In this document: positions 9,516-55,993 of the stretch, in pieces
How positions within the stretch are numbered: position 1 is the stretch's first letter
Layout of the letters: each line of letters begins with the position of its first letter
Assembly: GCA_003024785.1 (NCBI GenBank)
Contig: PUQB01000051.1
Span: forward strand, 641,430-705,429
Length of the DNA stretch: 64,000 nucleotides
Direction: 5' to 3'
Origin: Selaginella tamariscina
Taxonomy: Eukaryota; Streptophyta; Lycopodiopsida; Selaginellales; Selaginellaceae
Position numbers and translations under genes: made by a program
The notes under the pieces: generated by a model
Databases searched by the model: none
What the model saw: only the letters and a program-made list of their open reading frames with translations
Told to the model about the DNA's origin: nothing

Positions 9516-9764
9516 AGAGCCATGGTGGTTTGTTATGTACGTATGCATGTATATATAATCGTAAATCTACTATTATAATGCATCGGCTAGTATGGGACGA
9601 TATACATCTTATAAGTATACAACTTGTGGTGTGCGTGTGTGCGTGTGATTGATTGCTCTCTCCATGCTGGTGCATAATCATCCGATGGGCCATCTCCATG
9701 CCAATAGATTACGGACACGTGTATGTCAACGATGGAAGCTTAAAGGTAGGAAATGCGATTTCAC

Positions 9765-9771
9765 TATAAAA
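9765..9771 (+). promoter_or_regulatory. TATA box of kinase copy 1
   Basis: TATAAAA lies 81 bp upstream of the ATG at 9852. The same element in the same context is kept before the second kinase copy (28418-28424), so promoter and coding region were duplicated together. Confidence 0.6.
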
Positions 9772-9851
9772 GGTAAGTTTCTTTCTTAGAATTTTAGGTT
9801 TTTAACATTTTAGGTTTTCACTTTCTTCTGGCACAGTTCCCGCATCTTTCT

Positions 9852-10793
9852 ATGGAAGACTTGTCACCTGAGGAGGCATTCCCATGCCTTGCAGCGTCGT
9901 ACTCTATTGTCAAGCTAATCAGATCTGGATCACAAGGCGATGTATTCTTAGCATCAAAGAAGAATGTGAACAATTTAGTAGCATGTAAGTCGATTTTAGA
10001 GGGGGTAGAAACAGCATCAGGGAGATCAGGATCCTGAAAAAGCTTAAGGGATGTCCAGGAGTGATCACCTTACACGAAGTGATAGAGGAGGAGAATTCCA
10101 CAGCATGTCACTTGATTACAGACTTGTGCAGTTTGGACTTGGTGGGACGAGTGCAAAGAAATGGAGGAGGCCTGTCAGAAAGAAGCTGCATTCATCGTCA
10201 AGAGCTTAGCGAGAACATTAAAAAGTATACACGGGTTAGGGATTCTCCACAGAGACATAAAAGTTGACAATGTTTTAATCACACAGGAATCCCCACCTTA
10301 CGAAGTTAAATTGATTGACTTTGGAATGTCCATAGATGGCTTCAAGAAGAGAACAATATTAGGCAGTGTATGTGGTACCGAAGGATGCATAGCTCCTGAA
10401 GTGCTAGTGAATGGTGAATATTCTCCAGCATCTGATATGTGGGGATTGGGACTCGTCATGTATGAGATCTTGTCTGGTAAGAGATCGTTTTCCAACATAA
10501 AAGTCAATGTGGAGAAGAGATTGAAAGCTCAAGAAGATCTACCCAGGTTATTAAATTGGAATGGTGTAAGTGTCAAAGCAAAGGAGCTAATACTTGGGAT
10601 GCTGGATATGAACCCCAGAAAGAGGTTCACTACAGACCAAGTACTTAACCATCCCTGGATTTGTAGGTTTGACGATGAAGGCCTTAGTTCAGAACCAGTA
10701 AAGAGGAGGATTAAAAGGAACAGTGACCTGGTTGACGGTCGTTTACCAGAGAAGAAAAGAATTCGAAGAACTGGTACAACTTTGCTGCTGTAA
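9852..10793 (+). CDS. CAMK-like Ser/Thr protein kinase, copy 1, with two frameshifts
   Basis: This is a compact kinase of about 310 aa with little besides the kinase domain. All core motifs are visible in sequence: a glycine loop GSQGDVF, the beta-3 lysine in ACKSIL, HRDIKVDN (catalytic loop), DFGMS, an APE-equivalent (GCIAPEVL), DMWGLGLVMYEIL, and the subdomain XI arginine in NPRKRFT. A basic tail (KKRIRR) follows. The small size and CAMK character resemble PEP-carboxylase-kinase-like or CDPK-like kinases, but no EF hands or regulatory domain are present and the substrate cannot be inferred. Compared with the 28.5-kb copy, one extra G near 10022 and a 2-bp loss near 10181 break the frame. 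Because every catalytic residue survives, the gene may be intact in reality and these may be sequence errors. The stop is TAA at 10791. Confidence 0.72.
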
Positions 10794-10934
10794 AGACAGC
10801 TCTTGTTGTACATACATGTGTATCAACTTGAATATTAATGTAATTAACGATGTACTTAGCTACTTAATTACCTTTTGTTCTTGATGGCTAGCAATATTAT
10901 GGCAACGTGTATGATTCTCGTGGAATGTAATGAT

Positions 10935-11111: not shown

Positions 11112-12780
11112 TTTAGTTAGTTTAGAATCTTTAGATAACATCTGATTGTTATTAAAAATGTATTTATTATGGTAAACATGTATGTAGTTAGTATAGGTGC
11201 AATAAGTAATAAATTATGTACTAAAACTTAACTGTGTTGTGTAGCGACAGAGAGGGTGTTGGGGGAAACTATGGTGCCTAGGTTCACGAAAACGTGGAAT
11301 GCGGATAGTCCCAGCAAGACCGGAGATTCCAGGTGCCGCGTCAAACGCATGGCCAGCAAATGTGGCAGCCACGTCAACAGCTGCCAACCAGTTCGTGGGC
11401 CTCTCACCATCTCTCCTAGCCCCACCATCCTCGCCAGCGTCATTTGCCAACTCAGGAAATCCATCCACTGTCCAGTCGCCAGCTGCATTCACAGTCTCAT
11501 TATGTGCCAACTCAGCTGCAAATGCATCCTCACCGGCATTTGATTCAACGGCCACGATGTTCACGATTGGTCCATATGCTCACGAGACAACGCTTGTAAC
11601 GCCGCCTGCTTTCTCGGCTTTCACGACGGCGCCGTCAACTGCACCATTTACTCCGCCGCCTGAGGTGGCCCACTTGACAACGCCATCATCTCCTGACGTG
11701 CCATTTGCACAGCTGCTGACCTCTCAAGAACAAGGCTGCATCTCCGTCACCGGATTACACACGGAATGGTCACTACCACCTCTATCCGGAGAGTCCGTTA
11801 ACGAGCTTGATATCTCCGGCTTCCGGAATATCCGAGTCCGGACCACCGTCTCCGTTTCCAGAGGTCAGAGTTTACAGTTGCCTGCCGGAAATGACACTCC
11901 TGTTTCAGTTGGTTCTAATAACCACTCTAGAGAATTGGAGCCCATTAAGATTCTAAGCCCAACCAGGGATGAAGTACGGAAACAGGTCAGGAGTGTACGG
12001 GCACCTGAAGTACGGAGACTATCCGACTATGAGGTACAGAAGCCGGCTGGGAAACCGTCCGAGGTGCGTGGTTGCATCGGATGCGAATTGGGATCCGAAG
12101 ATGGAGTTGGGAACGTTTCCGATTATGGTCTAGAAGAGAAAGATGGGACGTCCGAGGAGATGATACGAAGACTTCCGAGTCTGCTTGAGGATGAGAGTGT
12201 ACAGAAACTCTCCGAGTATGAGGTTGGGAATGTATCTGAAGATGGAGATGACAGTTTATCAAAGCCGTCCGAAGATGAGGGTGGTGTAAGTTTACAGAAG
12301 CCGTCCGAAGACGGTATGTCCGAAGTTGGAGTACGGAAGCGGTCCGAGGATGAATGTTGGACTCTAGGGGAGCCGAGGATTCTCAATACGGGCTGAAGGC
12401 CTGCTCAAGGATGGGGTACGGGAGTTGCCCAGGGACGAATGTGGACAGGAGTCCGAGGACAAAGACAAGCTGTCTGAATATGCCGAAGGCTTGTCCGAAC
12501 ATGGAGTACGGAAGTTGTCAGTGGACGAACTCGGACTGTACGGGAGTCCGAGGATGGAGCTCGGTCATGTACGAACAGTAGCCGTGAAGACGACGATGGT
12601 ATGGACGATATGAGGATCGAGTTAGAAGTTGAAATAACTACGGAGGATTATGTGAAGGTGTGTGTGAAGAGCAGGAAGAAGAAGAATGGGTATTATGCAC
12701 ATGGTGAGGAGATTAATAAGATTAACATGGAGCTTAATCTGTTGGATAATGTGATTAGAGGAGTTGATGAGAAGGACTAA
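11112..12780 (+). pseudogene. Inverted, 5'-truncated duplicate of the glycoprotein-family gene
   Basis: This stretch is the reverse complement of 1-1590. Homology begins inside the intron (11112 here, about 1591 in the left copy), so exon 1 and the promoter are missing. The acceptor TGTGTAG at 11239-11244 and exon 2 from 11245 are kept. Conserved blocks follow in order: MRIVPARPEIPG, LLAPPSSPASF, MFTIGPYAHET, STAPFTPPPEV and LTTPSSPDVPFAQLLTS. A deletion after LLTS shifts the frame through the SPF/SPASG region, and a second indel restores it. The acidic SED/SEY repeats continue to about 12360. After another break and a lost A near 12524, the original frame ends at TAA 12778-12780 with an EVEITTEDYVKV C-terminus. 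It probably has no promoter of its own. Confidence 0.75.
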
Positions 12781-20710: not shown

Positions 20711-21440
20711 AACACAAAATATCATTCTTAATAGAAATATACTTTGTGACTTTAAAGGCGTGAGGTTAGGGCAACCACAATGATAAAGATTCTTAAAAAA
20801 AATGAAAGTGGTACGTTCACCTCAAGTTTTTTTATAAATATTCAATAACAGTTAGTACCTAAGTGCATTAAGTAGGTTTATTTCTTCTACACCTAAGGTT
20901 ATTAATATAATTCAATAAGTAACAATAATTAACTTTCAAAGTTAAAAAGTAGTCGTAATAAAAAATTATAACATGTGTAAAAAAGAAGATTGTGTGTTTT
21001 TTTTCTGTGGTAAAGAGAACATTTTCCTTTGTATATATATGTAATTTATTAATTTTTTTATTGTCTATGTGACATTATTATAATGAAATTTGTATATGAA
21101 TATACTTAACACAAATTTTGTAAAAATACATAATATTACAAATGCCTACACATATTTATATATATTAATGTGCACACATTTTACATTTATGTACATATAC
21201 AAATACATATATAGAAAAACACACAACATACGATATAGACAAAGAAGACTGATTTTACTATGTGAGAATGTGCATATATCTACATATTTTACAAATTAAT
21301 TAGTGATATGAACATATATTATATTATTATATTGAATTCAAATATTGCTGTTGGCTTACCCGGAAACTCCTTGTGTATATATAAATAGTATCTATATGAT
21401 GGATATAAGTTATAGATATTAAATATAAAAGGTATATGAT
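20711..21440. other. AT-rich intergenic DNA, no gene seen
   Basis: Low-complexity AT-rich sequence with TATA/ACAT runs. Confidence 0.5.
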
Positions 21441-21855
21441 GTGTATTCATATACATTAAGATGTGATATACATACATATATAAAAATGTGTGAGTGTGTG
21501 TGTGGAGAGAGAGTGTATATATTTAGTCACAGTATTTGTACAATGAGATGTGATATTCATATATAATGAGAATATACACACACATGCCGACAATTGTGTG
21601 TGTGGAGAGAGAGAGCATAACCGTAGCGTTTGTACAGTGAGATGATGATATTCATACATAATGAGATGTGTATTTAAGAGAGCATATATACATATATACA
21701 TTCAACCGTAGTGTATGTATAGTGAGATGTGATATACATACATATTGACAATTGTGTGTGTGTGTGTATACATTCAACCCTAGTGTCTTTACAATGAGAT
21801 GTGATATTATACATGATGAGATGCATATTTGTGTGATATACATACATACCGACAT
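21441..21855. repeat. Degenerate tandem repeat, period about 75-95 bp
   Basis: The block 'gagatgtgatat(t/a)catacat' followed by GT/GA-rich sequence recurs near 21466, 21546, 21640, 21724 and 21798. Confidence 0.75.
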
Positions 21856-21919
21856 CTTCTTTGCATCATGAGTCTGTATTGTACATACATATATTCAGTA
21901 GGGTGTTTCAAGGAGTGGG

Positions 21920-22035
21920 GATCAAGCTTATTCCCTTTACAAGATACCCCACATATATTGCATTTTTTTCAATTGATCAAGCTTTTTCCCTTTACAAGAT
22001 ACCCCACATATATTGCATTTTTTTCAATTGCAAGT
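21920..22035. repeat. Direct duplication of about 54 bp
   Basis: The segment 'atcaagctt.ttccctttac' ... 'gcattttttcaattg' occurs twice back to back. Confidence 0.9.
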
Positions 22036-22037
22036 CG

Positions 22038-22390
22038 ATAATTATGAAGACGAGAGGACCCAAAGACATTCTGATATGAAGACGAGAGGACCCAAAGACA
22101 TTCTACACGAAAGCGTTTGTGGATAATTATGAAGACGAGAGGACCCAAAGACATTCTACACGAAAGCGTTTGTGGATAATTATGAAGACGAGAGGACCCA
22201 AAGACATTCTACACGAAAGCGTTTGTGGATAATTATGAAGACGAGAGGACCCAAAGACATTCTACATGAATTATGAAGACGAGAGGACCCAAAGACATTC
22301 TATGAAGACGAGAGGACCCAAAGACATTCTACATGAATTATGAAGACGAGAGGACCCAAAGACATTCTACATGAAAGCGTTTGTGGATAT
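22038..22390. repeat. 53-bp minisatellite, full and truncated copies
   Basis: The unit begins 'aattatgaagacgagaggac', contains 'ccaaagacattctacacga' and ends 'aagcgtttgtggat'. Full-length units are mixed with copies truncated after 'acattct'. The array ends immediately beside the TRIM array. Confidence 0.92.
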
Positions 22391-22399
22391 ATGTTGTAT

Positions 22400-22516
22400 T
22401 GAAAAATAGATCTGGACAGGCCAGGGATTGAACCCGAGACCTCTCACACTGGTGTCAGGTGCTCTACCACTGAGCTACCTACCCGAATTGTGTGTATATT
22501 CAGCTTAGTTTTAACA
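22400..22516 (-). repeat. TRIM LTR, intact copy (left end of the array)
   Basis: This 117-bp LTR runs TGTTAAAA... to ...TTTTTCA and contains a full tRNA-like segment at 22414-22484. It abuts the 53-bp minisatellite, and the primer site expected beyond its end is absent. Confidence 0.8.
22414..22484 (-). other. tRNA-like sequence inside a TRIM LTR
   Basis: These 71 nt have canonical tRNA spacing. The acceptor strands GGGTAGG and CCTGTCC pair over 7 bp with two G-U pairs. The D arm is GCTC/GAGC with the A box TAGCTCAGTGG. A 5-nt variable loop follows, then the T arm with loop TTCAATC and B box GGTTCAATCC. The anticodon arm is degenerate: the stem is poorly paired and U33 is lacking. It is therefore not a working tRNA but could serve as an internal Pol III promoter. 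A T5 run follows its 3' end. Confidence 0.8.
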
Positions 22517-23359
22517 CTCCCCCTAAGCTGAACACACCTAAGTTGAACACACCACACATCCCTACCTGCCAGTCCGGGCCTACCACAGGCCTAAGCTGAA
22601 CACACCACACATCCCTACCTGCCAGTCCGGGCCTACCACAGGCTAGCTTAGTTTTAACACTCCCCCTAAGCTGAACACACCTAAGTTGAACACACCACAC
22701 ATCCCTACCTGCCAGTCCGGGCCTACCACAGGCCTAAGCTGAACACACCACACATCCCTACCTGCCAGTCCGGGCCTACCATAGGCTAGCTTAGTTTTAA
22801 CCTAAGCTGAACACACCACACATCCAACCATAGCTGGTAGGATTACCACACCACACATCCCTACCTGCCAGTCCGGGCCTACCACAGGCTAGCTTAGTTT
22901 TAACCTAAGCTGAACACACCACACATCCAACCATAGCTGGTAGGATTACCACAGGTCATCCAACCATAGCTGGACAGGCCGGGTTCAAGGCCCGGGACCT
23001 CTCATGCCAGTCCCGAATTGTGTGTATATTCAGCTTAGTTTTAACACTCCCCCTAAGCTGAACACACCTAAGTTGAACACACCACACATCCCTACCTGCC
23101 AGTCCGGGCCTACCACATGCCTAAGCTGAACACACCCACATCCCTACCTGCCAGTCCGGGCCTACCACAGGCTAGCTTAGTTTTAACCTAAGCTGAACAC
23201 ACCACACATCCAACCATAGCTGGTAGGATTACCACACCACACATCCCTACCTGCCAGTCCTAAGCTGAACACACCACACATCCAACCATAGCTGGTAGGA
23301 TTACCACAGGTCATCCAACCATAGCTGGACAGGCCGGGTTCAAGGCCCGGGACCTCTCA

Positions 23360-24600
23360 TGCCAGTCCGGGCCTACCACATGTCATCCAACCATAGCTGG
23401 ATAGGCCGGGGATTGAACCCGGGACCTCTCATGCCAGTCCGGGCCTACCACATGCCTAAGCTGAACACACCACACATCCCTACCTGCCAGTCCGGGCCTA
23501 CCACAGGCTAGCTTAGTTTTAACCTAAGCTGAACACACCACACATCCAACCATAGCTGGTAGGATTACCACACCACACATCCCTACCTGCCAGTCCTAAG
23601 CTGAACACACCACACATCCAACCATAGCTGGTAGGATTACCACAGGTCATCCAACCATAGCTGGACAGGCCGGGTTCAAGGCCCGGGACCTCTCATGCCA
23701 GTCCGGGCCTACCACATGTCATCCAACCATAGCTGGATAGGCCGGGGATTGAACCCGGGACCTCTCATGCCAGTCCGGGCCTACCACAGGTCATCCAACC
23801 ATAGCTAGACAGGCCGGGGATTGAACCCGGGGCCTCTCACACCACACATCCCTACCTGCCACAGGGGATTGAACCCGGGACCTCTCATGCCAGTCCGGGC
23901 CTACCACATGTCATCCAACCATAGCTGGACAGGCCGGGTTCAAGGCCCGGGACCTCTCATGCCAGTCCGGGCCTACCACATGTCATCCAACCATAGCTGG
24001 ATAGGCCGGGGATTGAACCCGGGACCTCTCATGCCAGTCCGGGCCTACCACATGTCATCCAACCATAGCTGGATAGGCCGGGGTTCAACCCGGCCCGGGA
24101 CCTCTCATGCCAGTCCGGGCCTACCACATGTCATCCAACCATAGCTGGATAGGCCGGGGATTGAACCCGGGACCTCTCATGCCAGTCCGGGCCTACCACA
24201 GGTCATCCAACCATAGCTAGACAGGCCGGGGATTGAACCCGGGGCCTCTCACACCACACATCCCTACCTGCCACAGGGGATTGAACCCGGGACCTCTCAT
24301 GCCAGTCCGGGCCTACCACATGTCATCCAACCATAGCTGGACAGGCCGGGTTCAAGGCCCGGGACCTCTCATGCCAGTCCGGGCCTACCACATGTCATCC
24401 AACCATAGCTGGATAGGCCGGGGATTGAACCCGGGACCTCTCATGCCAGTCCGGGCCTACCACATGTCATCCAACCATAGCTGGATAGGCCGGGGATTGA
24501 ACCCGGGACCTCTCATGCCAGTCCGGGCCTACCACAGGTCATCCAACCATAGCTAGACAGGCCGGGGATTGAACCCGGGGCCTCTCACACCACACATCCC
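23360..24600 (-). repeat. Derived satellite of about 73-bp units lacking the primer-binding site
   Basis: The repeated unit joins the T arm of the LTR (GGTTCAATCC) directly to the internal region (CCAGCTATGGTTGGATGAC on the minus strand). The sequence between AGCT and GGACAGG, which would hold the primer-binding site and the LTR end, is missing. Longer duplications are also present: the block around 23805-24115 recurs almost unchanged at about 24217-24530. Confidence 0.8.
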
Positions 24601-25141
24601 TACCTGCCACAGGGATTGAACCCGGGGCCTCTCACACCACACATCCCTACCTACCACAGGGGATTGAACCCGGGACCTCTCACACCACACATCCCTACCT
24701 ACCACAGGGGATTGAACCCGGGGCCTCTCACACCACACATCCCTACCTGCCACAGGGGATTGAACCCGGGGCCTCTCACACACACATCCCTACCTGCCAC
24801 AGGGGATTGAACCCGGGACCTCTCACACCACACATCCCTACCTCCCACAGGGGATGAACCCGGGACCTCTCACACCACACATCCCTACCTCCCAGTCCGG
24901 GGATTGAACCCGGGACCTCTCACACCGGTGTCAGGTGCTCTACCATTGAGCTACCTACCCGGGTTGTGTGTATATTCAGCTTAGTATTTAACACGCCCCC
25001 TAAGCTGAACACACCACACATCCCTACCTGCCAGTCCGGGTTGTGTGTATATTCAGCTTAGTATTTAACACGCCCCCTAAGCTGAACACACCACACATCC
25101 CTACCTGCCAGTTCGGGCCTACCACAGGCCATCCAACCATA

Positions 25142-25153
25142 GCTCTGATACCA
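25142..25153 (-). other. TRIM primer-binding site (initiator tRNA-Met)
   Basis: TGGTATCAGAGC on the minus strand, three bases after an LTR end ...TTTTCCA. Confidence 0.85.
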
Positions 25154-25429
25154 TATTGGAAAACAGATCTGGACAGTGTGTATATTCAGCTTAGTATTTA
25201 ACACGCCCCCTTAAGCTGAACACACCACACATCCCTACCTGCCAGTCCGGGCCTACCACAGGCCATCCAACCATATTGGAAAACAGATCTGGACAGGCCG
25301 GGGATTGAACCCGGGACCTCTCACACTGGTGTCAGGTGCCAGTCCGGGTTCAATCCCCAGGATCTCTCACACCGGTGTCAGGTGCTCTACCATTGAGCTA
25401 CCTGCCCGAGTTGTGTGTATATTCAACTT

Positions 25430-27130
25430 AGTTTTAACACTCCCCTAAGCTGAATTCAGCTTAGTTTTAACCACCCGGTGTCAGGTAGCTCAGTGGTTTT
25501 AACACTCCCCCTAAGCTGAATTCAGCTTAGTTTTAACCACACCGGTGTCAGGTGCTCTACCACTGAGCTACCTGCCCGAGTTGTGTGTATATTCACTTAG
25601 TTTTAACACCCCCCTAAGCTGAATTCAGCTTAGTTTTAACCACCCGGTGTCAGGTGCTCTACCACTGAGCTACCTGCCCGAGTTGTGGTATATTCAGCTT
25701 AGTTTTAACACCCCCTAAGCTGAATTCAGCTTAGTTTTAACACTCCCCCTAAGCTGAACACACCACACATCCCTACTGCCAGTCCGGGCCTACCACAGGC
25801 CAGCTTAGTTTTTAACACTCCCCCTAAGCTGAATTCAGCTTAGTTTTAACACTCCCCTAAGCTGAACACACCACACATCCCTACCACAGGCCAGCTTAGT
25901 TTTAATACTCCCCCTAAGCTGAACACACCTAAGCTGAACACACCACACATCCCTACCACATGCCAGCTTAGTTTTAACACTCCCCTAAGCTGAACACACC
26001 ACACATCCCTACCTGCCAGTCCGGGCCTACCACAGGCCAGCTTAGTTTTAACACTCCCCTAAGCTGAACACACCTAAGCTGAACACACCACACATCCCTA
26101 CCAGGCCAGCTTAGTTTTAACACTCCCCCTAAGCTGAACACACCTAAGCTGAACACACCAACATCCCTACCTGCCAGTCCGGGCCTACCACAGGCCAGCT
26201 TAGTTTTAACACTCCCCCTAAGCTCTCACACCGGTGTCAGGTGCTCTACCACTGAGCTACCTGCCCGAGTTGTGTGTATATTCAGCTTAGTTTTAACACT
26301 CCCCTAAGCTGAATTCAGCTTAGTTTTAACCACACCGGTGTCAGGTAGCTCAGTGGTTTAACACTCCCCCTAAGCTGAATTTAGCTCAGTGGTTTAACAC
26401 TCCCCCTAAGCTGAATTCAGCTCAGTTTTAACCACACCAGTGTCAGGTAGCTCAGTGGTTTAACACTCCCCCTAAGCTGAATTCAGCTTAGTTTTAACCA
26501 CACCGGTGTCAGGTGCTCTACCACTGAGCTACCTGCCCGAGTTGTGTGTATATTCAGCTTAGTTTTAACACTCCCCTAAGCTGAATTCAGCTTAGTTTTA
26601 ACCACACCGGTGTCAGGTAGCTCAGTGGTTTAACACTCCCCCTATAAGCTGAATTTAGCTCAGTGGTTTAACACTCCCCCTAAGCTGAATTCAGCTCAGT
26701 TTTAACCACACCAGTGTCAGGTAGCTCAGTGGTTTAACACTCCCCCTAAGCTGAATTCAGCTTAGTTTTAACACTCCCCCTAAGCTGAACACAGCACACA
26801 TCCCTACCTGCCAGTCCAGGCCTAAGCTGAACACACCCCCTAAGCTGAATTCAGCTTAGTTTTAACACTCCCCCTAAGCTGAACACACCACACATCCCTA
26901 CCTGCCAGTCCGGGCCTACCACAGGCCATCCCCTAAGCTGAACACACCACACATCCCTACCTGCCAGTCCAGGCCTAAGCTGAACACACCCCCTAAGCTG
27001 AATTCAGCTTAGTTTTAACACTCCCCCTAAGCTGAACACACCACACATCCCTACCTGCCAGTCCGGGCCTACCACAGGCCATCCCCCTAAGCTGAACACA
27101 CCACACATCCCTACCTGCCAGTCCGGGCCT
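25430..27130 (-). repeat. Derived sub-array built from the PPT/LTR junction and tRNA D-arm pieces
   Basis: Units alternate 'cttagttttaacactccccc' with 'taagctgaattcagctta' palindromes. Fragments carrying the tRNA-like D arm occur in both orientations: 'ctctaccactgagctacctg' near 25555, 25655, 26250 and 26515, and 'aggtagctcagtggt' near 25483, 26343 and 26448. Inversions and template-switch-like fusions have clearly occurred. Confidence 0.75.
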
Positions 27131-27756
27131 ACCACAGGCCATCCCCCTAAGCTGATCCCCCTATAAGGGGAATTTAGCTCAGTGGTTTAACACTCCCCCT
27201 AAGCTGAATTCAGCTCAGTTTTAACCACACCAGTGTCAGGTAGCTCAGTGGTTTAACACTCCCCCTAAGCTGAATTCAGCTTAGTTTTAACACTCCCCCT
27301 AAGCTGAACACAGCACACATCCCTACCTGCCAGTCCAGGCCTAAGCTGAACACACCCCTAAGCTGAATTCAGCTTAGTTTTAACACTCCCCCTACCTGCC
27401 AGTCCAGGCCTAAGCTGAACACACCCCCTAAGCTGAATTCAGCTTAGTTTTAACACTCCCCCTAAGCTGAACACACCACACATCCCTACCTGCCAGTCCG
27501 GGCCTACCACAGGCCATCCCCCTAAGCTGAACACACCACACATCCCTACCTGCCAGTCCAGGCCTAAGCTGAACACACCCCCTAAGCTGAATTCAGCTTA
27601 GTTTTAACACTCCCCCTAAGCTGAACACACCACACATCCCTACCTGCCAGTCCGGGCCTACCACAGGCCATCCCCCTAAGCTGAACACACCACACATCCC
27701 TACCTGCCAGTCCGGCCTACCACAGGCCATCCCCTAAGCTGAACACACCACACATA

Positions 27757-27768
27757 GCTCTGATACCA
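27757..27768 (-). other. TRIM primer-binding site (initiator tRNA-Met)
   Basis: TGGTATCAGAGC, three bases beyond the LTR at 27772-27887. Confidence 0.88.
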
Positions 27769-27771
27769 TAT

Positions 27772-27887
27772 TGGAAACATATCTGGACAGGCTAGGGATT
27801 GAACCCGGGCCTCTCACACCGGTGTCAAGTGCTCTACCATTGAGCTACCTACCCGGGTTGTATGTATATTCAGCTTAGTATTTAACA
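27772..27887 (-). repeat. TRIM LTR, intact copy with adjacent primer site and PPT
   Basis: This 116-bp LTR runs from TGTTAAAT to TTTCCA. It contains a tRNA-like segment at 27785-27854 with complete acceptor, D and T arms. A polypurine tract (AGCTTAGGGGGG) lies immediately upstream on the minus strand, and the primer site lies three bases downstream. It is the best reference copy for the family. Confidence 0.88.
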
Positions 27888-28173
27888 CGCCCCCCTAAGC
27901 TGAACACACCACACATCCCTACTTACCAGTCCGGGTTGTGTGTATATTCAGCTTAGTATTTAACACGCCCCCCTAAGCTGAACACACCACACATCCCTAA
28001 CTGCCAGTCCGGGTTGTGTGTATATTCAGCTTAGTATTTAACACGCCCCCTAAGCTGAACATACCACACAGGTAGGGATGTGTGGTGTGTTCAGCTTAGG
28101 GGGCCGTGTTAAGCTGAACACACCACACATCCCTACCTGCCAGTCCGGGCCTACCACAGGCCATCCAACCATA

Positions 28174-28271
28174 GCTCTGATACCATATTGGAAAATAGAT
28201 CTGGACAGGCCGGGGATTGAACCCGGGACCTCTCACACCGGGTTATGTGTATATTCAGCTTAGTTTTAACA
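28174..28271 (-). repeat. Terminal TRIM LTR (tRNA D arm deleted) plus primer site
   Basis: The primer site is 28174-28185 and the LTR is 28189-28271. The LTR keeps the T arm/B box and T4 run but has lost the anticodon and D arms. It ends the array. Confidence 0.8.
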
Positions 28272-28417
28272 GGTTGCACATGTCGTAATGCACAATCCTG
28301 TGATTGCTCTCTTTCTTGCCAAATTTCACCTATATGTTGGTGCATTCCTACAAGGGCCATCTTCAAGTCGACGATGGAAGCTTAAAGGTCACACAGCGTA
28401 GGAAGTGCTATTTACAT

Positions 28418-28424
28418 TATAAAA
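28418..28424 (+). promoter_or_regulatory. TATA box retained upstream of kinase copy 2
   Basis: TATAAAA in the same context as at 9765, 53 bp before the ATG. Confidence 0.5.
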
Positions 28425-28476
28425 CGTAAGTTTCTTTCTTAGAATTTTAGGTTTTTACTGCTTCCCGCATCTTTCT

Positions 28477-29266
28477 ATGGAAGACTTGTCATCTGAGGAG
28501 GCATTCCCATGCCTTACAGCGTCTTACTCTGTTGTCAAGCTAATCAGATCTGGATTACAAGGCGATGTATTCTTAGCACAAAGAAGAATGTGAACAATTT
28601 AGTAGCATGTAAGTCGATTTTAGAGGGGGTAGAAAGAAACAGCATCAGGATCCTGAAAAGGCTTAAGGGATGTCCAGGTGTGATCACCTTACACGAAGTG
28701 ATAGAGGAGGAGACTTGATTACAGACTTGTGCAGTTTGGATTTGGTGGACCGAGTGCACAAAAATGGAGGAGGCTTGTCTGAGAAAGAAGCTGCATTCAT
28801 CGTCAAAAGCTTAGCGAGAACCTTAAAAAGCATACATGGGGTTAGGGATTATCCATAGAAACATGAAACTTGCCCATCTTACGAAGTTAAGTTGATTGAC
28901 TTTGGAATGTCCATAGATGGCTTCAAGAAGAGAACCAAGTGAATGGTGAATATTCTCCAGCATCTGATGTATGCATCATGCATGAGATCTTGTCTGGTAA
29001 GAGAGCGTTTTCCATGTGGATGAGAGATTGAAAGCTCAAGAAGATCTCCCCAGGTTATTGAATTGGAATGGTGTAAGTGACGAATTAAAGGAGCTAATAC
29101 TTGGTATGCTGGACATGAATCCAGAAAGAGGTTCACTATGGATTTGCAAGTTTGACGATGAAGGCCTTGGTTCAGAACCAGGAAAGAGGAGGATAAAAGG
29201 AACAGTGACCTGGTTGACGATCTTTTACCAGATAAGAAAAGAATTCGAAGAACCGTACAACTTATA
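28477..29266 (+). pseudogene. CAMK-like kinase, copy 2 (decayed)
   Basis: This copy is closely similar to 9852-10793, including its upstream 180 bp and 3' flank to about 29350. The N-lobe is partly preserved (KSILEGVE, RILKRLKGCPG). The catalytic-loop HRD...N segment and the activation loop through the APE motif are deleted, and several frame breaks are present. It cannot encode an active kinase. Its sequence shows which reading copy 1 had before copy 1's indels. Confidence 0.85.
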
Positions 29267-29399: not shown

Positions 29400-30745
29400 A
29401 TGTTTAGACAATGGATCGAAGAGAGCTGGTGAACTCCCCATGATCGTCACATGTTCCTCTCTGTCTGGTATTTGATCAGATATCTTACATGCCTTGGAAA
29501 CATTCCCATCCCCTGTAGCCAGCTTCCACCTTCGGCAGATGCACTGATCATGAATAAGTCGTTTTTCATGACATTCCATCAAAGAGCTTCTTAGCATCTC
29601 ACAGGTGCCCGGAGCAGCAAGGATGGCAGTCCAGGCAATTGGATTTGGATCGACGAACAAGCTCCTTGCTTCTGCACGATGCCACTCTCGGAATGTGCAA
29701 TTCCAGGAGTTCCGTGAACGCACGTTCCGGGCATATGCAACAATCATCACATTCCACGGCTCAGAGATGGCATCGTTTTGCGTGACTGATGCACTTTCCG
29801 AAGATAGTAATCTGTCTGTTCGGATCGCTTGTGTGACTGCTGCACAAACCGAATAAGAGTTTGGATAGTAATCTGTCTGTGCGGTGATCGCTTGCAAGGA
29901 ACTTAGCCTGGATGCGAGTGCCTCATAGATATGTATGTGTAAGGTCCACACAATGTGTATATGCGTGTGTTTCACATTAACAAATATGAGGGTTAAAGAG
30001 AGAAAATGTCATGCGCTAACGAACGGATTACCGTGTTCCGAATATATTGCACCGTATATGCCCTCTCATTCAGTTTCGACAACCGATCGAAGAGCGCCTG
30101 GCTTATTGAACTTCCACATCTACTGCGTATTCATTACGTTAAATGAGCTTATGTTCCTCTCTGGTATTTGATCGAATATATTCCGTCATTCATGTCGGAC
30201 TCCCTATGATCATGGTGCTCCATGAAACGGAGTCCTTGTCATGCCTCTTATTTAAACAATCATTGTCACACAGTGGTGTGCGGTGTATGCAGCTAGCATA
30301 TACAACGTCTGGCTTCTCCATGAGATCAAACAATCTTCAGGATTCTCAAAGTTCCCCACTCCGGGCATATGCACTGGCTCTCGTCTTTCTCCGGCATTCC
30401 TTCTCGCCTATCATACCTTGTTAACATCACATTCCACCTCTGGGGCATCTCCTCAAAGAATCTCTTAGCTTCTTCTAGGAATATGTACTGGTCGTGTTTG
30501 TCCATGAATACGCTGTTTTCTATCAAAGAGCTTCTTAGCCTCGTAGTAACCGAGATTAGGTAGGATCTTTAACAATCTCCTTGCTTGCAAGATGACCACT
30601 CTGGCCATATGAACTGATCATGCAGTTCCAGGAGACAGAGTTTTGCTGCCACATTTCATCAATCATGTTCTTGGCATGCTGCAGATGCCCATTCCAGGCA
30701 ATCATCACGTTGCACGAGGCCAATTGAACTGCATATGTTTGAAGA
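29400..30745 (-). pseudogene. PPR pseudogene
   Basis: On the minus strand, broken frames contain PPR S-type repeat pieces: WNVMIVAYARN, PNPIAWTAILAA, EEAKRFFEEMPQRWNVML and a 'caacgtgatgattgcctgga' segment near 30700. These align with the PPR gene at 55994, including 'aactctgtctcctggaactg'. It lies tail-to-tail with kinase copy 2. Confidence 0.8.
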
Positions 30746-36164: not shown

Positions 36165-36169
36165 ACTGT

Positions 36170-36371
36170 TGTAAGATACTGTGTATTATGTAACGTAATG
36201 TATATACGCATGTGTATATACACACATGCATAGTGACACATGGGTGGTGATCTGGCCGCCATGTGTCAGCGCCACGTGTCGCATGTGTGCCACGTGGCAG
36301 GAGTCTCCTGTATATAAGCAGGGTTTTTGTAGCTTAATGGATCTGACATTTTAATATATATCGGCTCTTTC
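36170..36371 (+). repeat. 5' LTR of gypsy element 1
   Basis: It begins TGTAAGATACTG and ends GGCTCTTTC. It carries CCACGTGTC (36272-36280), the palindrome GCCACGTGGC (36289-36298) and a TATA box TATATAAG (36311-36318). After the LTR comes TTGGTGGAGAAGTTGGG, a possible primer site resembling the 3' end of tRNA-Ala. Confidence 0.88.
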
Positions 36372-36425
36372 ATTGGTGGAGAAGTTGGGTATTCCTTTCT
36401 TCCGCCTTTTCCTTTTCGTGTTTTC

Positions 36426-39400
36426 ATGACGAATATGGAGACGGCGTTTAGCATTATTGCTACTGCTATTGATGCACAAACAAAGTTGTTGGAGCGCTTT
36501 GTTGAGGGTTCGTCCTCCTCTTCCCCGTCTGAGCCTCATGCCGGGGGATCTGCTTCTAGTACTCCTTCATCTTCTTCACAGGCCACAAATCCGAGGGTTC
36601 GACCCCGATCTTTTTGTGGTGATCCGGGAGATGATGTATACCACTGGTTTGATCATTTCCAAGTCATTGTTCGTTACCATGGTTGGGATGAGGCCCGTGC
36701 TCTCAGAGAATTCCCTACATGTTTGGAAGGTCCTGCGCTCAAGTGGTATAATGGATTGGCTGCGGAGATTCAAGCCAATAGTAATCGGTTAACGGAATGC
36801 CTCAAACGTACGTTTGGCAAAGTTGAGGATTCAGATGATGCTTTCCAACAACTGCATGCGATACGACAACATCCTGGTGAGTCTGTTATGCGGTTAGTAT
36901 TAGGTTCGGGGATTTAGTTCGGCGTGCATATCCTAACATGCCTGAGCCTATTAAGCTCGGTATGTTATGGCCAACTATGCGACCCGAACTTGTTCGATTC
37001 GTTCGGGCTCTTCGTCCTACCACATTGGAGGAAGCTTTTGCACTAGCTCAACGTTTTGAGTTGGTGCCTGGTGAGGGCCGTGTTCCCCTTGGGTTACCTG
37101 CTCCTCTTGTTCAGCGTGCTGATCCAATGGAGGTTGATGCTGCTGCATATGTGCCCGCACGGCAAGCCTTTCGTGGTCGACCTCGGGGCCCACCCCGTGG
37201 ACCACCTCCACGAAATCGTCCTGCACCTGCTCCAGTCCTGCCCGTGGTGGTCAAAATCCACGGATTCGTGACAGGAGGAATCGGAACAATGCAGGTCGAC
37301 CCAATCAAGTTCATTGTTGGGCCTGTTGGGCACCTGGACATACTTGGGGGCATGCGATGTGTATCCTGATTGGCGTCCACCACATCCAGGCTGGCGACCA
37401 TATGTTCCGGATGGTGTGCCTGTGGCGGCCATTATGCTAATGATGAGCTTCAGATGACGAAGCCTCTCTTGCAGGTGGATCTGTTGCGGAAAACAGTAAT
37501 CGTACGGGCGACGGAGGGATCCCGTGCGATGGAGACTTCACCTCCATGTTTTTTCCGCTATGCATATCAAGGTTTGCAAGTTCCACCAATCATCCAGTTT
37601 TCACATTTTCTGCACGGTGAATGATCTTTCAGTCACAGTGCTTGTGGATACAGGATCCAGTATGTCTTCCATAACTGCTTCTCTAGCGCATCGGTGCTCA
37701 TTACCCTTAAGACGTGCAGATAAGGTCTTGCACATTTTATATGGTAATGGGCAGTCTCGTGCAGTATCACAGTACACCACTTTGACTATGCTGGTTATGG
37801 GTGCCAACTGTAAGTTTCCCTCTGGGTCTCTTAGGGTTGTCCCTTCCCAGGTCTTTGACATCATTCTGGGATGTGATTGGTTAAAGCAGTCGAAAGGTAC
37901 ATGTGATTTTTCACTCTCTCCTCCTGTATTACGCTTGGAGTCTGTGTCTTTGCAGTCTGTTCCTTTACGTCCAGAGAAGCTTGTTGCTGTTTGTATCACG
38001 CATACAGCTCCTTTGATTCCGGTCTTGGGGTGGTGTTCATCTCAACAGGTTCAAATGCCGGATCCGTCACCTGAGTGTCGAGCACACTGCATCGAACAAC
38101 TTAAGAAACAGTATGCAAGTTTGTTCAAATTTGATCTGTCCCAAGGTGCACGTGTGAAGACTCGACACTGTATACCCACCGGCAATGCAAAGCCTTTCAA
38201 AGTCCCGGTTCGACGCAGGTCACCAAAGGAGTTATCAGCCATGCGAACAGCTGTTACTGATATGATTGGTAAACGAGTGTGTCGTCCGTCACGGAGTCCA
38301 TGGGCATGTGAACCTCATTTGGTTCCCAAGCCTGATGGATCTCTCCGATTTTGTGTGGATTACCGACCTCTTAACGATGTTACCATCAAAGATGTCTATC
38401 CACTTCCGAACTCTGCCGATCTATTAGATCGTTTGGGTCAGAGTCGATGGTTTACTAAGTTGGATTTGGCATCAGGATATTGGCAGGTTCCTATGGCTGA
38501 GGAGGATATTCCAAAAACGGCCTTCCGGACACCATTTGGTCTTTACGAGTTTTTGGTCATGCCTTTTGGATTGACTTCAGCTCCTGCCACCTTTCAACGC
38601 ATGATGGATGAGCTTCTTTCCGATATGCCTGATATCACTGCCGATTTTATCGACGATGTGCTCATTCATGGGTCTGGTTCTTGGGAGGATCACATTCGTG
38701 ATGTACGGCGCGTTCTTGATCGATTTCGAGAAGTTGGCCTGAAGTTGAAACTTGAAAAGTGTGTGTTTGGTTCGACCGACACCACTTACTTGGGTTACCG
38801 TATATCTCGAGAGGGTTTACAGGTGGATCCAATGAAGTTGCGAGCTGTTCGAGAGTTCCCTCGTCCCGTACAGTACAGGAAGTCCAGCGTTTCTTGGGCA
38901 CGGTGCAGTACTTGGGTCGATTCATCGATCATCTCACTGATCGAACTGCCCCTCTTCGGGAGTTAGTTCGTCCACAGGTATCTTTCAGGTGGACTCGCAG
39001 GTGTCAGCAGGCATTTGACCAGTTAAAAGAGTTCCTGACAACTCCACCATTGCTTCAATACCCAGATTTTACTCGTCCGTTCATTTTACGAGTAGATGCC
39101 TCAGATGTTGGTATTGGTGGTGTATTGATGCAAACTGATGCTGTGGATTCTTCAATTCGACACCCGGTGGCTTACATTAGTCGAGTACTCACGCCGGCTG
39201 AGCGGAATTATTCCACTACTGAAAAAGAATGCCTTGCTGCTGTTTGGGGTTTTGAACGACTTCATGCCTACTTACATGGGAGTGAAACACTTTTGGAGTG
39301 TGATCATGCTGCTGTCACTTCCTTTAAAACGGAAGAATTTAGTGGGTCGTGTAGCCAGATGGGCATTACGTCTCCAAGTATATAACTTTAAGGTGGTGCA

Positions 39401-40878
39401 CAGGCCTGGGCGAACAATGGTGGATGCGGATGCACTTTCTCGAGCACCCCTTTCTGATTCCACTTTGCCTGCTCATGCAGTCGCTGCAGCATTCGGTTTG
39501 ATACAAGCCCCTCAGGTATTCGATGCCGACTTACCATCCTTGGAACAGTGGCAGGATGCCAAAAACATGAACCGTGGACGAGGCAATTACGGATGCGTTT
39601 GCAATCCTTCTTCCGAACCGGTTTCGACAATATCATGCTCAGTTTCGACTTCAGGATGGTTTATTGTATTTTATTGGGACAAATCCAGAGACAGATGGCG
39701 TTTGGTGCCCTCTACATATGTTCCACACCTTCTTCGAGCATATCATGATTCGCCTATTGTTGGAGGTCATCTTGGTCACCAACGAGTGTTGGAGAAGCTC
39801 GCAGATCCTTTTATTGGCCTAGCATGCGTGGTGATGTGATCAGGTATATTCAGAGTTGTCCCATTTGTCAAACTCGGAATTCCTCTACGACTCGGGCCAT
39901 GGGGGTGTTAGAATCCATCAACGTCTCTCGCCCTTTTGAGTTAATTGCAGTGGATTTAATGGGACCTTTTCCACGTTCTTCTCAAGGTAACCAGTACATC
40001 ATTGTCGTATCTGATTATTTAACTCGTTGGGTGGAGGTTGGTGCTCTTCCGGATGCAACTGCCTGTCAACAGCTTTGTTTTTGTTCGATAATGTGGTTTT
40101 GCAGCATTCTTGTCCAGAGCGGATGTTATCAGATAATGGCCCCGCTTTCATTGCAGAGGTATTCCGAGTGTTGTGTGAGAGGTTAGGGGTAAAACACTCA
40201 TTTGCCTCTCCATATCATCCACAAACTGATGGTTTGGTGGAGCGATTGAATCGGACCTTCAAGGGTATGATCTCGAAGTATGTGAACTTCAATCACACTG
40301 ACTGGGATTGGTATTTGCGATGCTTGAGATTTGCTTATGTAACAGGCATTCAGAGTTCGATTGGTATCTCTCCATTCAAGGCATTGTATGGATATGATCC
40401 TAAGTTGCCTAGTGAATTGGGATTATCATCGAATCTGCCACGTGCCGAGGATGAAAATGTGGGCTCGACATTTGGATGCTGTCTTACCTCTTCTGCGTGC
40501 AGAGTCTGCTGAACATCTTGGTCGAGCTCAAATACAGCAACAATCTTCTTACAATGCACGACATCAAACTCCACCAGACTATGCTGACGGTGACTTAGTA
40601 CTGGTACGTTTTCCCAAGCTAACTGCACCTGGGCTTGCAACTGGTTTATTACATAAGTGGCTTGGTCCCTACCGAGTTCTCCGAAAGGTTGGTCCTCAGG
40701 TGTATCAGGTACAGTTGGTGGGATCTCATGAGGTTGAGATAGTTCACGTAGTTCGAATGAAACGGTTTGTTGTTCGAGACTCGTTGACTACATTCGGTCA
40801 TACCTTAGATGGCCCAACTCACACGGATCCAGGACCATCAGATCCATCACCATCTACACAACCGCAGAGGGGGGATAA
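36426..40878 (+). pseudogene. Gag-pol of gypsy element 1, interrupted by frameshifts
   Basis: Domains appear in order. The Gag starts METAFSIIATAI and ends near a CCHC-type region. The aspartic protease has VLVDTGSSMSS. The RT has FCVDYRPLND, WFTKLDLASGYWQ and the catalytic FIDDVL. The RNase H has LRVDASDVGIGG. The integrase has HLGHQRV with CPICQTRN (HHCC zinc), and the DDE residues in VDLMGPF, SDNGPAF and the Glu of GLVERLN. A C-terminal GPYRVLRKVGPQVYQV block has no chromodomain seen. Frame breaks occur near 36895 (a T lost from a TTT run), 37430-37620, 38870, 39325, 39600-39800 and 40065. Not autonomous as written. Confidence 0.88.
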
Positions 40879-41071
40879 TGTAAGATACTGTATATTATGT
40901 AACGTAATGTATATACGCATGTGTATATACACACATGCATAGTGACACATCTGGCCGCCATGTGTCAGCGCCACGTGTCGCATGTGTGCCACGTGGCAGG
41001 AGGTCTCCTGTATATAAGCAGGGTTTTTGTAGCTTAATGGATCTGACATTTTAATATATATCGGCTCTTTC
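40879..41071 (+). repeat. 3' LTR of gypsy element 1
   Basis: It matches the 5' LTR with one short deletion in the 'gggtggtgatctgg' region and a few substitutions. Confidence 0.9.
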
Positions 41072-41076
41072 ACTGT

Positions 41077-42009: not shown

Positions 42010-43160
42010 ATGGCTAGTGATAAGCTTCTCAAAGAGCTCTCAAGCAGCACCCACTTCGAGTTACCCCATATCAAAAGCACTATCCCATTCGAGTGTTATC
42101 CCAATTTTGCTCGAGTCAACAATGAGGCCAACCAGAGGGCTATGCAGGTGCTAGGGATAACCGATAGCAAAGCTAAGTTGAAATTCATCCAGTCCAGAAT
42201 AGTCATGTGTGGAAGTCTCATGATTCCAAGAGGAGAAGATGATAATCGAATGATCCTCGCCAGCAAAAACCTTGTGGGTGTGTTCGCGATTGATGATATA
42301 TTCGAGTCTCAACCTCGAATTGCAAAGCATTTGCTCTGGTTGCTAGCGAATGATGCCTATGACGAGTCCTGCAACACAGGTAACATAGGAAATTGCAGAA
42401 GAAATACTTAAATTTACAGGGGGAGGATTTCAATATCCTCGAGAGTGGCTGTTGTTCCGAGAGGTACACTGTGAGCTCAGACGCCAAATGTCACCAGAAT
42501 TATTCGAGCGCTACCACAGAGCTCTCATTACTTTTCTCAGCACGGTCTTGAATGAAGAGGTTGAAAACCACCGTCTCAAGGACCACATTCCAGATCCAGA
42601 GACATATCGCACCATGCGACGAAGAACTATTTTCGCCGATGGCCCAATACTCTTAGTTGGCCAGTTCTGCATGGGAGTTGACCTGGACAAAGAAGATTAC
42701 GAATCTGCAGATTTTATCAACTTGGTGGACGCCATTTCTGATCACATTGCACTCACAAACGACTTGTTCTCTTTTAGGAAGGAGCTCTATAGCAAAATGT
42801 ACTACAACTGGATCTCTGTGCTTATCAACCATGGCCTTAGTCTCCAAGCAGCAATCAGCAGAGTGTGCGACATGATTCTGGAGACCGAAGCCAATATATG
42901 GAAGCTGCAGAAGAAACTTGTTGAGAGAGCATGTGTGAACGGGAAGAAAGATTTGCTCAAATATGTAAATGCCATGCCCTTGGCTTGCTTCTGGCAACCT
43001 GAGGTGGAGTTTCATCACCGGGCGGTACCATGGATATAATAATCCTCTCATAACCGGCCAGGAGTTTCATGGAACCTGGCTGCTTCATCCTGAGGCTACC
43101 ATCGTTCTTCAGCTTCAGGAATGCCACTATTCACATCCTTATCTGATCACATCTGATTGA
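42010..43160 (+). CDS. MTPSL: Microbial-type terpene synthase-like protein (MTPSL), two exons, frameshift near 3' end
   Basis: Class I terpene synthases ionise prenyl diphosphates using Mg2+ held by two motifs. MTPSLs make mono- or sesquiterpenes in non-seed plants and lack the usual plant alpha/beta domain layout. Exon 1 is 42010-42379 and exon 2 starts at 42420. The joined frame is continuous (CNTG, then GGFQYPREWLLF). The Asp-rich motif is DDIFE (about residue 95). The NSE motif is in NDLFSFRKE, with all expected ligands (N, S and E). The typical C-terminal block GNLRWSFITGRYHG follows in the +1 frame. An extra T in GCTTGCTTCTGG (about 42983-42994) shifts out of frame, giving an early stop at 43039; removing the shift would carry the frame to TGA at 43160. 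Product specificity cannot be read from sequence. The gene sits alone between two inverted gypsy elements. Confidence 0.85.
42380..42419 (+). other. Apparent 40-bp intron of MTPSL
   Basis: The sequence begins GTAACATAGG and ends AAATTTACAG. It has in-frame stops and its length is not a multiple of three. Removing it joins the two coding blocks in phase 1 at a position that keeps the conserved GGFQYPREW segment. Confidence 0.7.
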
Positions 43161-43451: not shown

Positions 43452-43456
43452 AACTT

Positions 43457-43673
43457 GAAAGAGCAGATATATTAAATGAAAATCTGATATATATTAGTTT
43501 ACAAAAAAACCCTGCTTATATACAGGAGGTCTCCTGCCACGTGGCACACATGCGACACGTGGCGCTGACACATGGGGCCAGATCACCACCCATGTGTCAC
43601 TACGCATGTGCGTATATACACATGCGTATATACGGTACGTTACCTAATATACAGTATCTTACACTATCCTCCC
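43457..43673 (-). repeat. 3' LTR of gypsy element 2
   Basis: It begins TGTAAGATACTG and ends CTGCTCTTTC on the minus strand. It contains the same pair of ACGTG boxes (43547-43562 region) and a TATATAAG. A purine tract lies just inside it (GCAGAGGGGAGGATAG). Confidence 0.88.
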
Positions 43674-46600: not shown

Positions 46601-48141
46601 ACTGCAAAGACACAGACTCCAAGCGTAATACAGGAGGAGAGAGTGAAAAATCACATGTACCTTTCGACTGCTTTAACCAATCACATCCCAGAATGATGTC
46701 AAAGACCTGGGAAGGGACAACCCTAAGAGACCCAGAGGGAAACTTACAGTTGGCACCCATAACTAGTGTAGTCGAAGTGGTGTACTGTGATACTGCACGA
46801 GACTGCCCATTACCATATAAAATGTGCAAGACCTTATCTGCTCGTCTCAAGGGTAATGAGCACCGATGCGCCAGAGAAGTAGTTATGGAAGACATGCTAG
46901 ATCCTGTATCCACAAGTACTGTGACTGAAACATCATTCACTCGTGCAGAAAATGTGAAAACTGGATGATTTGGTGGAACTTGCAACCCTTGATATGCATA
47001 GCGAAAAAAACATGGAGGTGGAGTTTCCATCGCACGGGATCCCTCCGTCGCCCGTACGATTACTGGTTTTCCGCAACAGATCCACCCGCAAGAGAAGCGT
47101 CATCATCTGGAAGCTCATCATCAGACATAATGGCCGCCACAGGTACACCATCCGGAACATATGGTCGCCAGCCTGGATGTGGTGGACGCCAATCAGGATA
47201 CACATCGCATGCCCGCCAAGTATGTCCAGGTGCCCAACAGGCCCAGCAGTGAACTTGATTGGGTTGACCTGCATTGTTCCGATTCCTCCTGTCACGAATC
47301 CGTGGATTTTGACCACCACGGGCAGGAACTGGAGCAGGTGCAGGACGATTTCGTGGAGGTGGTCTACGGGGTGGGCCCCGAGGTCGACCACGAAAGGCTT
47401 GTCGTGCGGGCACATATGCAGCAGCATCAACCTCCATTGGATCAGCACGCTGAACAAGAGGAGCAGGTAACCCAAGGGGAACACGGCCCTCACCAGGCAC
47501 CAACTCAAAACGTTGAGCTAGTGCAAAAGCTTCCTCCAATGTGGTAGGACGAAGAGCCCGAACGAATCGAACAAGTTCGGGTCGCATAGTTGGCCATAAC
47601 ATACCGAGCTTAATAGGCTCAGGCATGTTAGGATACGCACGCCGAACTAAATCCCCGAACCTAATACTAAACCGCATAACAGACTCACCAGGATGTTGTC
47701 GTATCGCATGCAGTTGTTGGAAAGCATCATCTGAATCCTCAACTTTGCCAAACGTACGTTTGAGACATTCCGTTAACCGATTACTATTGGCTTGAATCTC
47801 CGCAGCCAATCCATTATACCACTTGAGCGCAGGGCCTTCCAAACATGTAGGGAATTCTCTGAGAGCACGGGCCTCATCCCAACCATGTAACGAACAATGA
47901 CTTGGAAATGATCAAACCAGTGGTATACATCATCTCCCGGATCACCACAAAAAGATCGGGGTCGAACCCTCGGATTTGTGGCCTGTGAAGAAGATGAAGG
48001 AGTACTAGAAGCAGATCCCCCGGCATGAGGCTCAGACGGGGAAGAGGAGGACGGACCCTCAACGAAGCGCTCCAACAACTTAGTTTGTGCATCAATAGCA
48101 GTAGCAATAATGCTAAAAGCCGTCTCCATGTTCATTGTCAT
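43674..48141 (-). pseudogene. Gag-pol of gypsy element 2, interrupted by frameshifts
   Basis: The domain set is the same as in element 1. Gag starts at 48141 and has a CCHC knuckle (CWACWAPGHTWRAC). The protease (DTGSS) and RT (FIDDVL) lie in one 479-codon frame at 45591-47030. RNase H and the start of the integrase are at 44797-45798, and the integrase core with its C-terminus is in one 341-codon frame at 43664-44689. Breaks fall near 47840, 47040, 45640, 44890 and 44690, at positions mostly different from those in element 1. A Gag frame also ends with a stop near 47060, upstream of the protease frame; this may be the natural gag/pol boundary. Confidence 0.88.
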
Positions 48142-48195
48142 GGAAACAAGAAAAAGAAAATGCGGAAGAAAGGAATACCCAACTTCTCCACCAAT

Positions 48196-48400
48196 GAAAG
48201 AGCAGATATATTAAATGAAAATCTGATATATTAGTTTACAAAAAACCCTGCTTATATACAGGAGGTCTCCTGCCACGTGGCACACATGCGACACGTGGCG
48301 CTGACACATGGGGGCCAGATCACCACCCATGTGTCACTACGCATGTGTGTATATACACATGCGTATATACGGTACGTTACCTAATATACAGTATCTTACA
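48196..48400 (-). repeat. 5' LTR of gypsy element 2
   Basis: This 205-bp LTR ends CTCTTTC next to the same TTGGTGGAGAAG primer-site candidate as in element 1. Confidence 0.88.
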
Positions 48401-48405
48401 AACTT

Positions 48406-55990: not shown

Positions 55991-55993
55991 TGG

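Follow-up and report, generated by a model that had tools for sequence, protein, structure and literature searches.

Among terminal-repeat retrotransposons in miniature (TRIMs), which are miniature, non-autonomous long terminal repeat (LTR) retrotransposons, the Helenus, Cassandra, and Ajax elements are grouped as TRIMp3, i.e., TRIMs transcribed by RNA polymerase III (Pol III) (Kojima, 2024; PMC10886601). Helenus elements have two LTRs with tRNA-derived sequence, lack coding capacity, occur in fungi, animals, and one lycophyte, measure 311-1263 bp, and produce target duplications of 4-5 bp (5 in plants); the insertion of a short interspersed element (SINE) into a TRIM has been proposed as their origin. 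Plants are represented by a single family, Helenus-1_SMo from Selaginella moellendorffii, with an LTR of 120 bp, an interior of 85 bp, and 5-bp duplications (PMC10886601). We analyzed a 64,000-nucleotide stretch of the Selaginella tamariscina genome (assembly GCA_003024785.1, contig PUQB01000051.1, positions 641,430 to 705,429; hereafter, the window), in which a 5.9-kb region is very probably an array of a Helenus-type TRIM.

Nearly the whole of window positions 22397-28271 is made up, on the minus strand, of pieces of one unit of ~203 bp. When the region was tiled by a Viterbi model containing one LTR and one interior, with either orientation allowed, 94.9% of its 5,875 bases were identical to this single unit, in 168 segments separated by 167 junctions. 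Under identical settings the reversed array reached 80.5%, one shuffle 75.1%, and five other stretches of the window 74.7-76.3%. The initial annotation, made from the letters alone, had described a minus-strand tandem array of a tRNA-bearing TRIM, and this observation is confirmed. The array holds many LTR and interior pieces, mainly in one orientation; the majority are incomplete and do not keep register. Both ends of the array are LTR sequence.

Five LTR copies were recognized; three are listed in Table 1, and of the other two, one holds an insert and one is cut. The LTR is 117-120 bp long depending on copy and end, in agreement with the ~117 bp annotated. With CAATA as the end, the copy at 22397-22516 measures 120 bp and that at 27769-27887 measures 119 bp; a CA end shortens each by three bases. 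The initial annotation placed the end of the latter copy at 27772, which does yield the termini TG...CA, but with the three additional bases of the CAATA end the left terminal copy reaches 120 bp and the sequences flanking the array match better.

The LTR is adjoined by TGGTATCAGAG(C), which is complementary to the 3' end of initiator-Met tRNA, presumably the primer. The core TGGTATCAGAG of this primer binding site (PBS), which had been annotated as an initiator-Met primer site, has three exact occurrences in the window; each of them lies within the array and on the minus strand. The PBS and a purine-rich tract are found at opposite ends of the interior. The tract reads GGGGGAG before the terminal LTR and GGGGGCG in the 25071-25153 interior; a purine tract had been annotated, together with an interior of ~90 bp, which is in fact 83 bp long in this copy. 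The longer PBS string TGGTATCAGAGC is also part of the search pattern published for Cassandra (PMC7215508).

Table 1. Coordinates of the TRIM array, its parts, and its flanks in the window
Feature	Position	Strand	Evidence
Whole array of rearranged TRIM units	22397..28271	-	tiling with one 203-bp unit
Terminal 3' LTR, complete, 120 bp	22397..22516	-	BLAST, 89.5% over 114 bp versus the 27769-27887 LTR; alignment
Complete LTR, 119 bp (27772-27887 in the initial annotation)	27769..27887	-	BLAST, alignment
Terminal 5' LTR, 86 bp, box A lost by internal deletion	28186..28271	-	alignment, tiling
PBS TGGTATCAGAGC adjoining LTR	27757..27768	-	sequence; 11-mer at 27758-27768
PBS core, second copy	25143..25153	-	pattern search
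PBS core, third copy, adjoining 5' terminal LTR	28175..28185	-	pattern search
Complete interior, 83 bp, PBS to purine-rich tract GGGGGCG	25071..25153	-	alignment, tiling
Purine tract GGGGGAG immediately before terminal LTR	22517..22523	-	pattern GGGGGAGTGTTAA at 22511-22523
tRNA-like sequence, terminal LTR	22413..22484	-	RF00005, 41.2 bits; acceptor 7/7, D 4/4, T 5/5 pairs including G-U
tRNA-like sequence in 27769-27887 LTR, boxes A and B present	27784..27854	-	RF00005, 41.0 bits; A-B pattern 27796-27849; T stem 4/5
tRNA-like sequence with rearranged long insert	25290..25407	-	RF00005, 46.0 bits
Predicted hairpin from the interior end across the purine-rich tract into the LTR	25040..25094	-	predicted fold, -25.4 kcal/mol
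Inverted unit segment forming long hairpin	28071..28112	+	tiling segment 3; mir-3622, 38 bits versus gathering score 78
Left flank TGTTG, possible target duplication	22392..22396	.	4/5 identical to right flank
Right flank GGTTG, possible target duplication	28272..28276	.	4/5 identical to left flank

As annotated, the LTR body is largely tRNA-shaped: Rfam family RF00005 (gathering score 29) matches the minus strand above that score at 27784-27854, 22413-22484, and 25290-25407, and a fourth match (24897-24953, 26.2 bits) falls below it. The tRNA-like body spans 71-72 nt. In the three LTR copies that reach both of its ends, the acceptor stem is paired at 7/7 positions and the D stem at 4/4 in each, and the T stem at 5, 4, and 5 of 5 (G-U counted); a box A-box B pattern is present at four sites. 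ARAGORN found no tRNA genes across the window with the bacterial code and, at its default threshold under the standard code, no tRNA in any of the five LTR copies; under relaxed settings its calls for three copies disagreed (Trp/Leu undetermined; Arg; Val with an intron). A cluster of functional tRNA genes was rejected on these null results and inconsistent anticodons. Since Rfam matches lie above the cut-off while ARAGORN at default finds none, the tRNA part of the LTR is, by its sequence, a pseudo-tRNA with a promoter-like core rather than an intact tRNA gene. Many Helenus elements are in such a pseudo-tRNA state, without a consistent tRNA identity (Kojima, 2024; PMC10886601).

The LTRs, their tRNA-like body, the PBS, the purine-rich tract, and the array can all be read directly in the DNA. 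Like Helenus-1_SMo, the unit combines a tRNA-derived LTR bearing boxes A and B with a PBS and a purine tract, and its LTR measures 117-120 bp against 120 bp there. Judged by dimensions alone, the family is most likely Helenus-1_SMo of Selaginella or a close relative. The initial annotation had put forward a tRNA-type LTR promoter as a candidate for an undescribed system; the element class is, however, already known, having been defined as Helenus in 2024 (PMC10886601). Searches of the literature from 2024 on (Helenus, TRIM, retrotransposon) turned up Kojima (2024) alone, and searches on plant tRNA-bearing LTRs yielded nothing beyond that paper. The remaining interest of the locus lies in the extent of its scrambling and in a hairpin at the purine tract.

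The other TRIMp3 groups share the general design. Cassandra is a TRIM that likewise has a small-RNA Pol III promoter in its LTR and forms long tandem arrays; in contrast to the elements described here, it carries 5S rRNA rather than tRNA sequence, and its arrays are in-register LTR-interior repeats, not scrambled pieces (PMC7215508). The LTRs of Ajax, another TRIM, also carry promoter sequence of a small-RNA Pol III gene; Ajax differs in being 5S-derived and is reported from two nemertean worms (PMC10886601). A 5S-based element was rejected here: an Rfam scan of 21000-29000 with E up to 1 gave 22 matches, none to a 5S family. The microRNA families listed by Rfam for the array all fall below their cut-offs. 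A prokaryotic or viral origin was also rejected: the tRNA part, written as a 40-base IUPAC pattern, had no matches in bacterial/archaeal or viral contigs, a result that covers that exact string only.

Tandem arrays of TRIMs are known from plants, having been reported for 129 subfamilies in 35 of 43 plant genomes (Gao, 2016; PMC4717578). By definition such an array has at least three LTRs and at least two interiors in tandem. The same source lists eight TRIM subfamilies for S. moellendorffii (copy-number columns 1,177 and 10,158; 1.19% of the genome), and the string "trna" does not occur in its main text. These arrays resemble the present one in their LTR and interior units, including inverted ones, and are flanked by 5-bp duplications, as the present array may be; the maize examples contain 3-5 LTRs in register (PMC4717578). 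For Helenus, tandem arrays are mentioned in the main text of PMC10886601 only for LTR-11_DR of zebrafish.

In the chosen tiling setting, the 167 junctions fall into 50 types, of which 26 recur and cover 143 of the junctions; types one base apart could be a single junction, and the number of junctions varies with the jump penalty, from 137 to 184 across four settings. Most junctions look as if they arose once and were then copied, in line with the repeats detected by Tandem Repeats Finder in the array, whose periods include 48, 72, 102, and 153 bp. Microhomology at the junctions averages 1.48, compared with 0.70 at random positions; we set it aside as evidence because the junctions are mostly mutual copies and tiling breakpoints are freely placed.

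The two flanks of the array are identical at 4/5 positions, a match that is suggestive of a target duplication, read on the plus strand, with the CAATA end of the LTR picked after the flanks were seen. With one boundary fixed, random pairs of 5-mers of the window match at at least 4/5 positions with a frequency of 0.019. We sought an empty site at 9725-10821, which is paralogous to right-flank segment 28367-29296, but the paralogy starts 95 bases past the array edge and does not span the insertion. The flanking segment 28367-29296 is itself 76.8% like 9725-10821, which holds a protein-kinase-like open reading frame (ORF; 10116-10793), and looks like a decayed copy of it. On the left, another tandem array (21920-22389; units of 53, 55, and 29-38 bp) ends no more than ~10 bases from the edge of the TRIM array.

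Several observations weigh against a Helenus-type TRIM with a Pol III promoter. With an LTR of 117-120 bp and an interior of 83 bp, an LTR-interior-LTR element would measure ~323 bp, and the tiling revealed no such intact copy in the array, nor is a single one present in the window. Dispersed copies are likewise absent from the window, BLAST giving only short matches outside the array (E at least 0.83). The putative target duplication is imperfect, compared with the 5-bp duplications of Helenus-1_SMo; moreover, it needs the CAATA end, and the match is lost with the CA end. In length, the interior falls 2 bp short of that of Helenus-1_SMo. In addition, the 27769-27887 LTR has only TTT at the terminator position, along with its one T-stem mismatch. 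Finally, the CAA triplet discussed below is weak evidence for Pol III initiation, being a common triplet that precedes only 36-45% of angiosperm tRNA genes.

Use of the LTR promoter by Pol III is probable, as judged from boxes A and B, CAA, and T-runs. In all three copies that include both this region and the tRNA start, CAA lies 4-6 nt upstream of that start. Four aligned LTR copies extend past the tRNA part, and there T-runs of 5, 4, 4, and 3 follow it, i.e., at least 4 in three of the four. Both signals are compatible with Pol III, but not decisive, since among angiosperm tRNA genes CAA is found within 10 nt for 36-45%, and 67-72% show a run of four or more Ts (PMC11700998). TATA boxes sought by eye in the LTR start were not used; TATA at -14 is too near the tRNA, and the other candidate was TTAAAA at -30 to -25.

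The strongest competing explanation concerns this promoter step and leaves the identity of the element untouched: a Helenus-type TRIM could be driven by RNA polymerase II, with a dead tRNA fragment as a passenger in its LTR. The failure of ARAGORN at default to find a tRNA fits this explanation, as do a terminal LTR without box A and an LTR without a T-run of four. It accords less well with acceptor and D stems that are fully paired, and T stems paired at 4-5 of 5 positions, in three copies, or with boxes A and B kept at four sites. The LTR, moreover, has little else to offer, as only 32 bp precede and 16 bp follow the tRNA part of the 22397-22516 copy. We regard a Pol II-driven element as unlikely.

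Far less probable is a plain tRNA-derived satellite, in which a pseudo-tRNA gene would have expanded in tandem without retrotransposition. Strong local amplification at the periods given above, in a window with neither a dispersed copy nor an intact element, would fit a satellite. Yet the repeated unit has LTR sequence flanking an interior, with a PBS and a purine-rich tract in the correct order and orientation, and its dimensions agree with those of a known TRIM family; nor does a satellite predict LTR sequence at both array boundaries and flanks matching at 4/5. The weakest candidate, a tRNA-derived SINE mobilized by a long interspersed element (LINE) rather than an LTR element, would explain the tRNA-like head with boxes A and B, and a SINE does figure in the origin of Helenus proposed by Kojima (PMC10886601), but it is hardly tenable given that the 32-33 bp upstream of the tRNA start are part of the repeat, that PBS and purine-tract junctions mark the ends of the unit, and that neither a LINE-like nor a poly(A) tail was seen in the sequence.

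For the Helenus-type TRIM, we propose the following course of events. In the 5' LTR, Pol III would use boxes A and B to initiate a short distance before the tRNA-like sequence. Some transcripts would pass the short T-run of this LTR and end at the T-run of the 3' LTR, so that the RNA would carry a repeat of ~87 nt at each end. Because the T-run is identical in both LTRs, a full-length RNA needs read-through of the first. An autonomous Copia element would provide the proteins, including those for integration; initiator-Met tRNA would prime at the PBS, and the purine tract would prime the second strand. Priming at these two sites, reverse transcription, and integration would follow the established LTR-retrotransposon cycle. 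From one insertion at this site, recurrent local duplications, deletions, and inversions would then have produced the many scrambled copies in situ.

The hairpin offers a possible handle on the autonomous partner. A 55-nt segment (25040-25094) is predicted to fold with 18 pairs at -25.4 kcal/mol (z -5.87; none of 200 shuffles was equally stable). The predicted stem joins the last part of the interior to the beginning of the LTR, and the loop holds most of the purine tract together with the first LTR bases. A pattern search located 31 purine-tract/LTR junctions, of which 21 are paired at 12 or more of 18 ungapped positions, although the copies are not independent; in the remaining 10 the arm is rearranged or shifted. 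For the LTRs of Sire-type Copia elements, the start of U3 and the sequence upstream of the purine tract have been described as probably forming a stem loop whose loop contains the tract, and a systematic search in other elements was deemed warranted (PMC3601003). Those elements, unlike TRIMs, are autonomous, and the likeness concerns the hairpin feature alone. In the main text of the Helenus paper (PMC10886601), the words "hairpin" and "inverted" do not occur, and the hairpins given in a paper on a bivalve TRIM lie inside the interior. According to Kojima (2024; PMC10886601), nothing indicates the partner of Cassandra, and the section on plant Helenus names none.

The hairpin hints at a Sire-type Copia partner and is offered as a lead. 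Tentatively, it may be a packaging or second-strand priming signal common to Sire-type Copia, in which case it would reveal which autonomous lineage serves as partner of a Pol III-promoted TRIM. Similarly speculative is the idea that the LTR is nearly pure machinery, consisting of a hairpin arm, a tRNA-type Pol III gene, a T-run terminator, and little else.

The window contains several other features. Two LTR retrotransposons of 96.2% identity, at 36169-41072 (plus strand) and 43456-48401 (minus strand), flank in opposite orientation a piece of a terpene synthase gene (42389-43039). The former has reverse transcriptase and protease matches, and from its ORF domain order we read it as Gypsy-like. 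The gene piece matches Pfam Terpene_syn_C_2, and its best PDB sequence match is named terpene synthase; microbial-type terpene synthases are reported from S. moellendorffii and also from bryophytes (PMC7826640). Taken with the matching dimensions of the TRIM, this gene piece fits a Selaginella host. A 1.6-kb inverted duplication (1-1592 and 11112-12658) is 96.0% identical, and fragments to the right of the array (29525-30718) are 69-84% like a pentatricopeptide repeat (PPR) ORF at 55991-57298, the matching stretch being 56082-57137.

For Selaginella, a reading of the sequence made blind independently supports the existence in a plant of tRNA-promoted TRIMs able to form long scrambled arrays. 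The hairpin at the purine tract is a testable lead to the Copia lineage mobilizing such elements and, if true, would help explain the heavy scrambling of the array. In S. moellendorffii, 1290 tRNA loci have been counted, versus 432 in Physcomitrella (Bermudez-Santana, 2010; PMC2888827), and we infer that Helenus copies may add to this number. Where arrays of this kind are present, both the number of tRNA genes and the extent of annotated satellites can be overstated.

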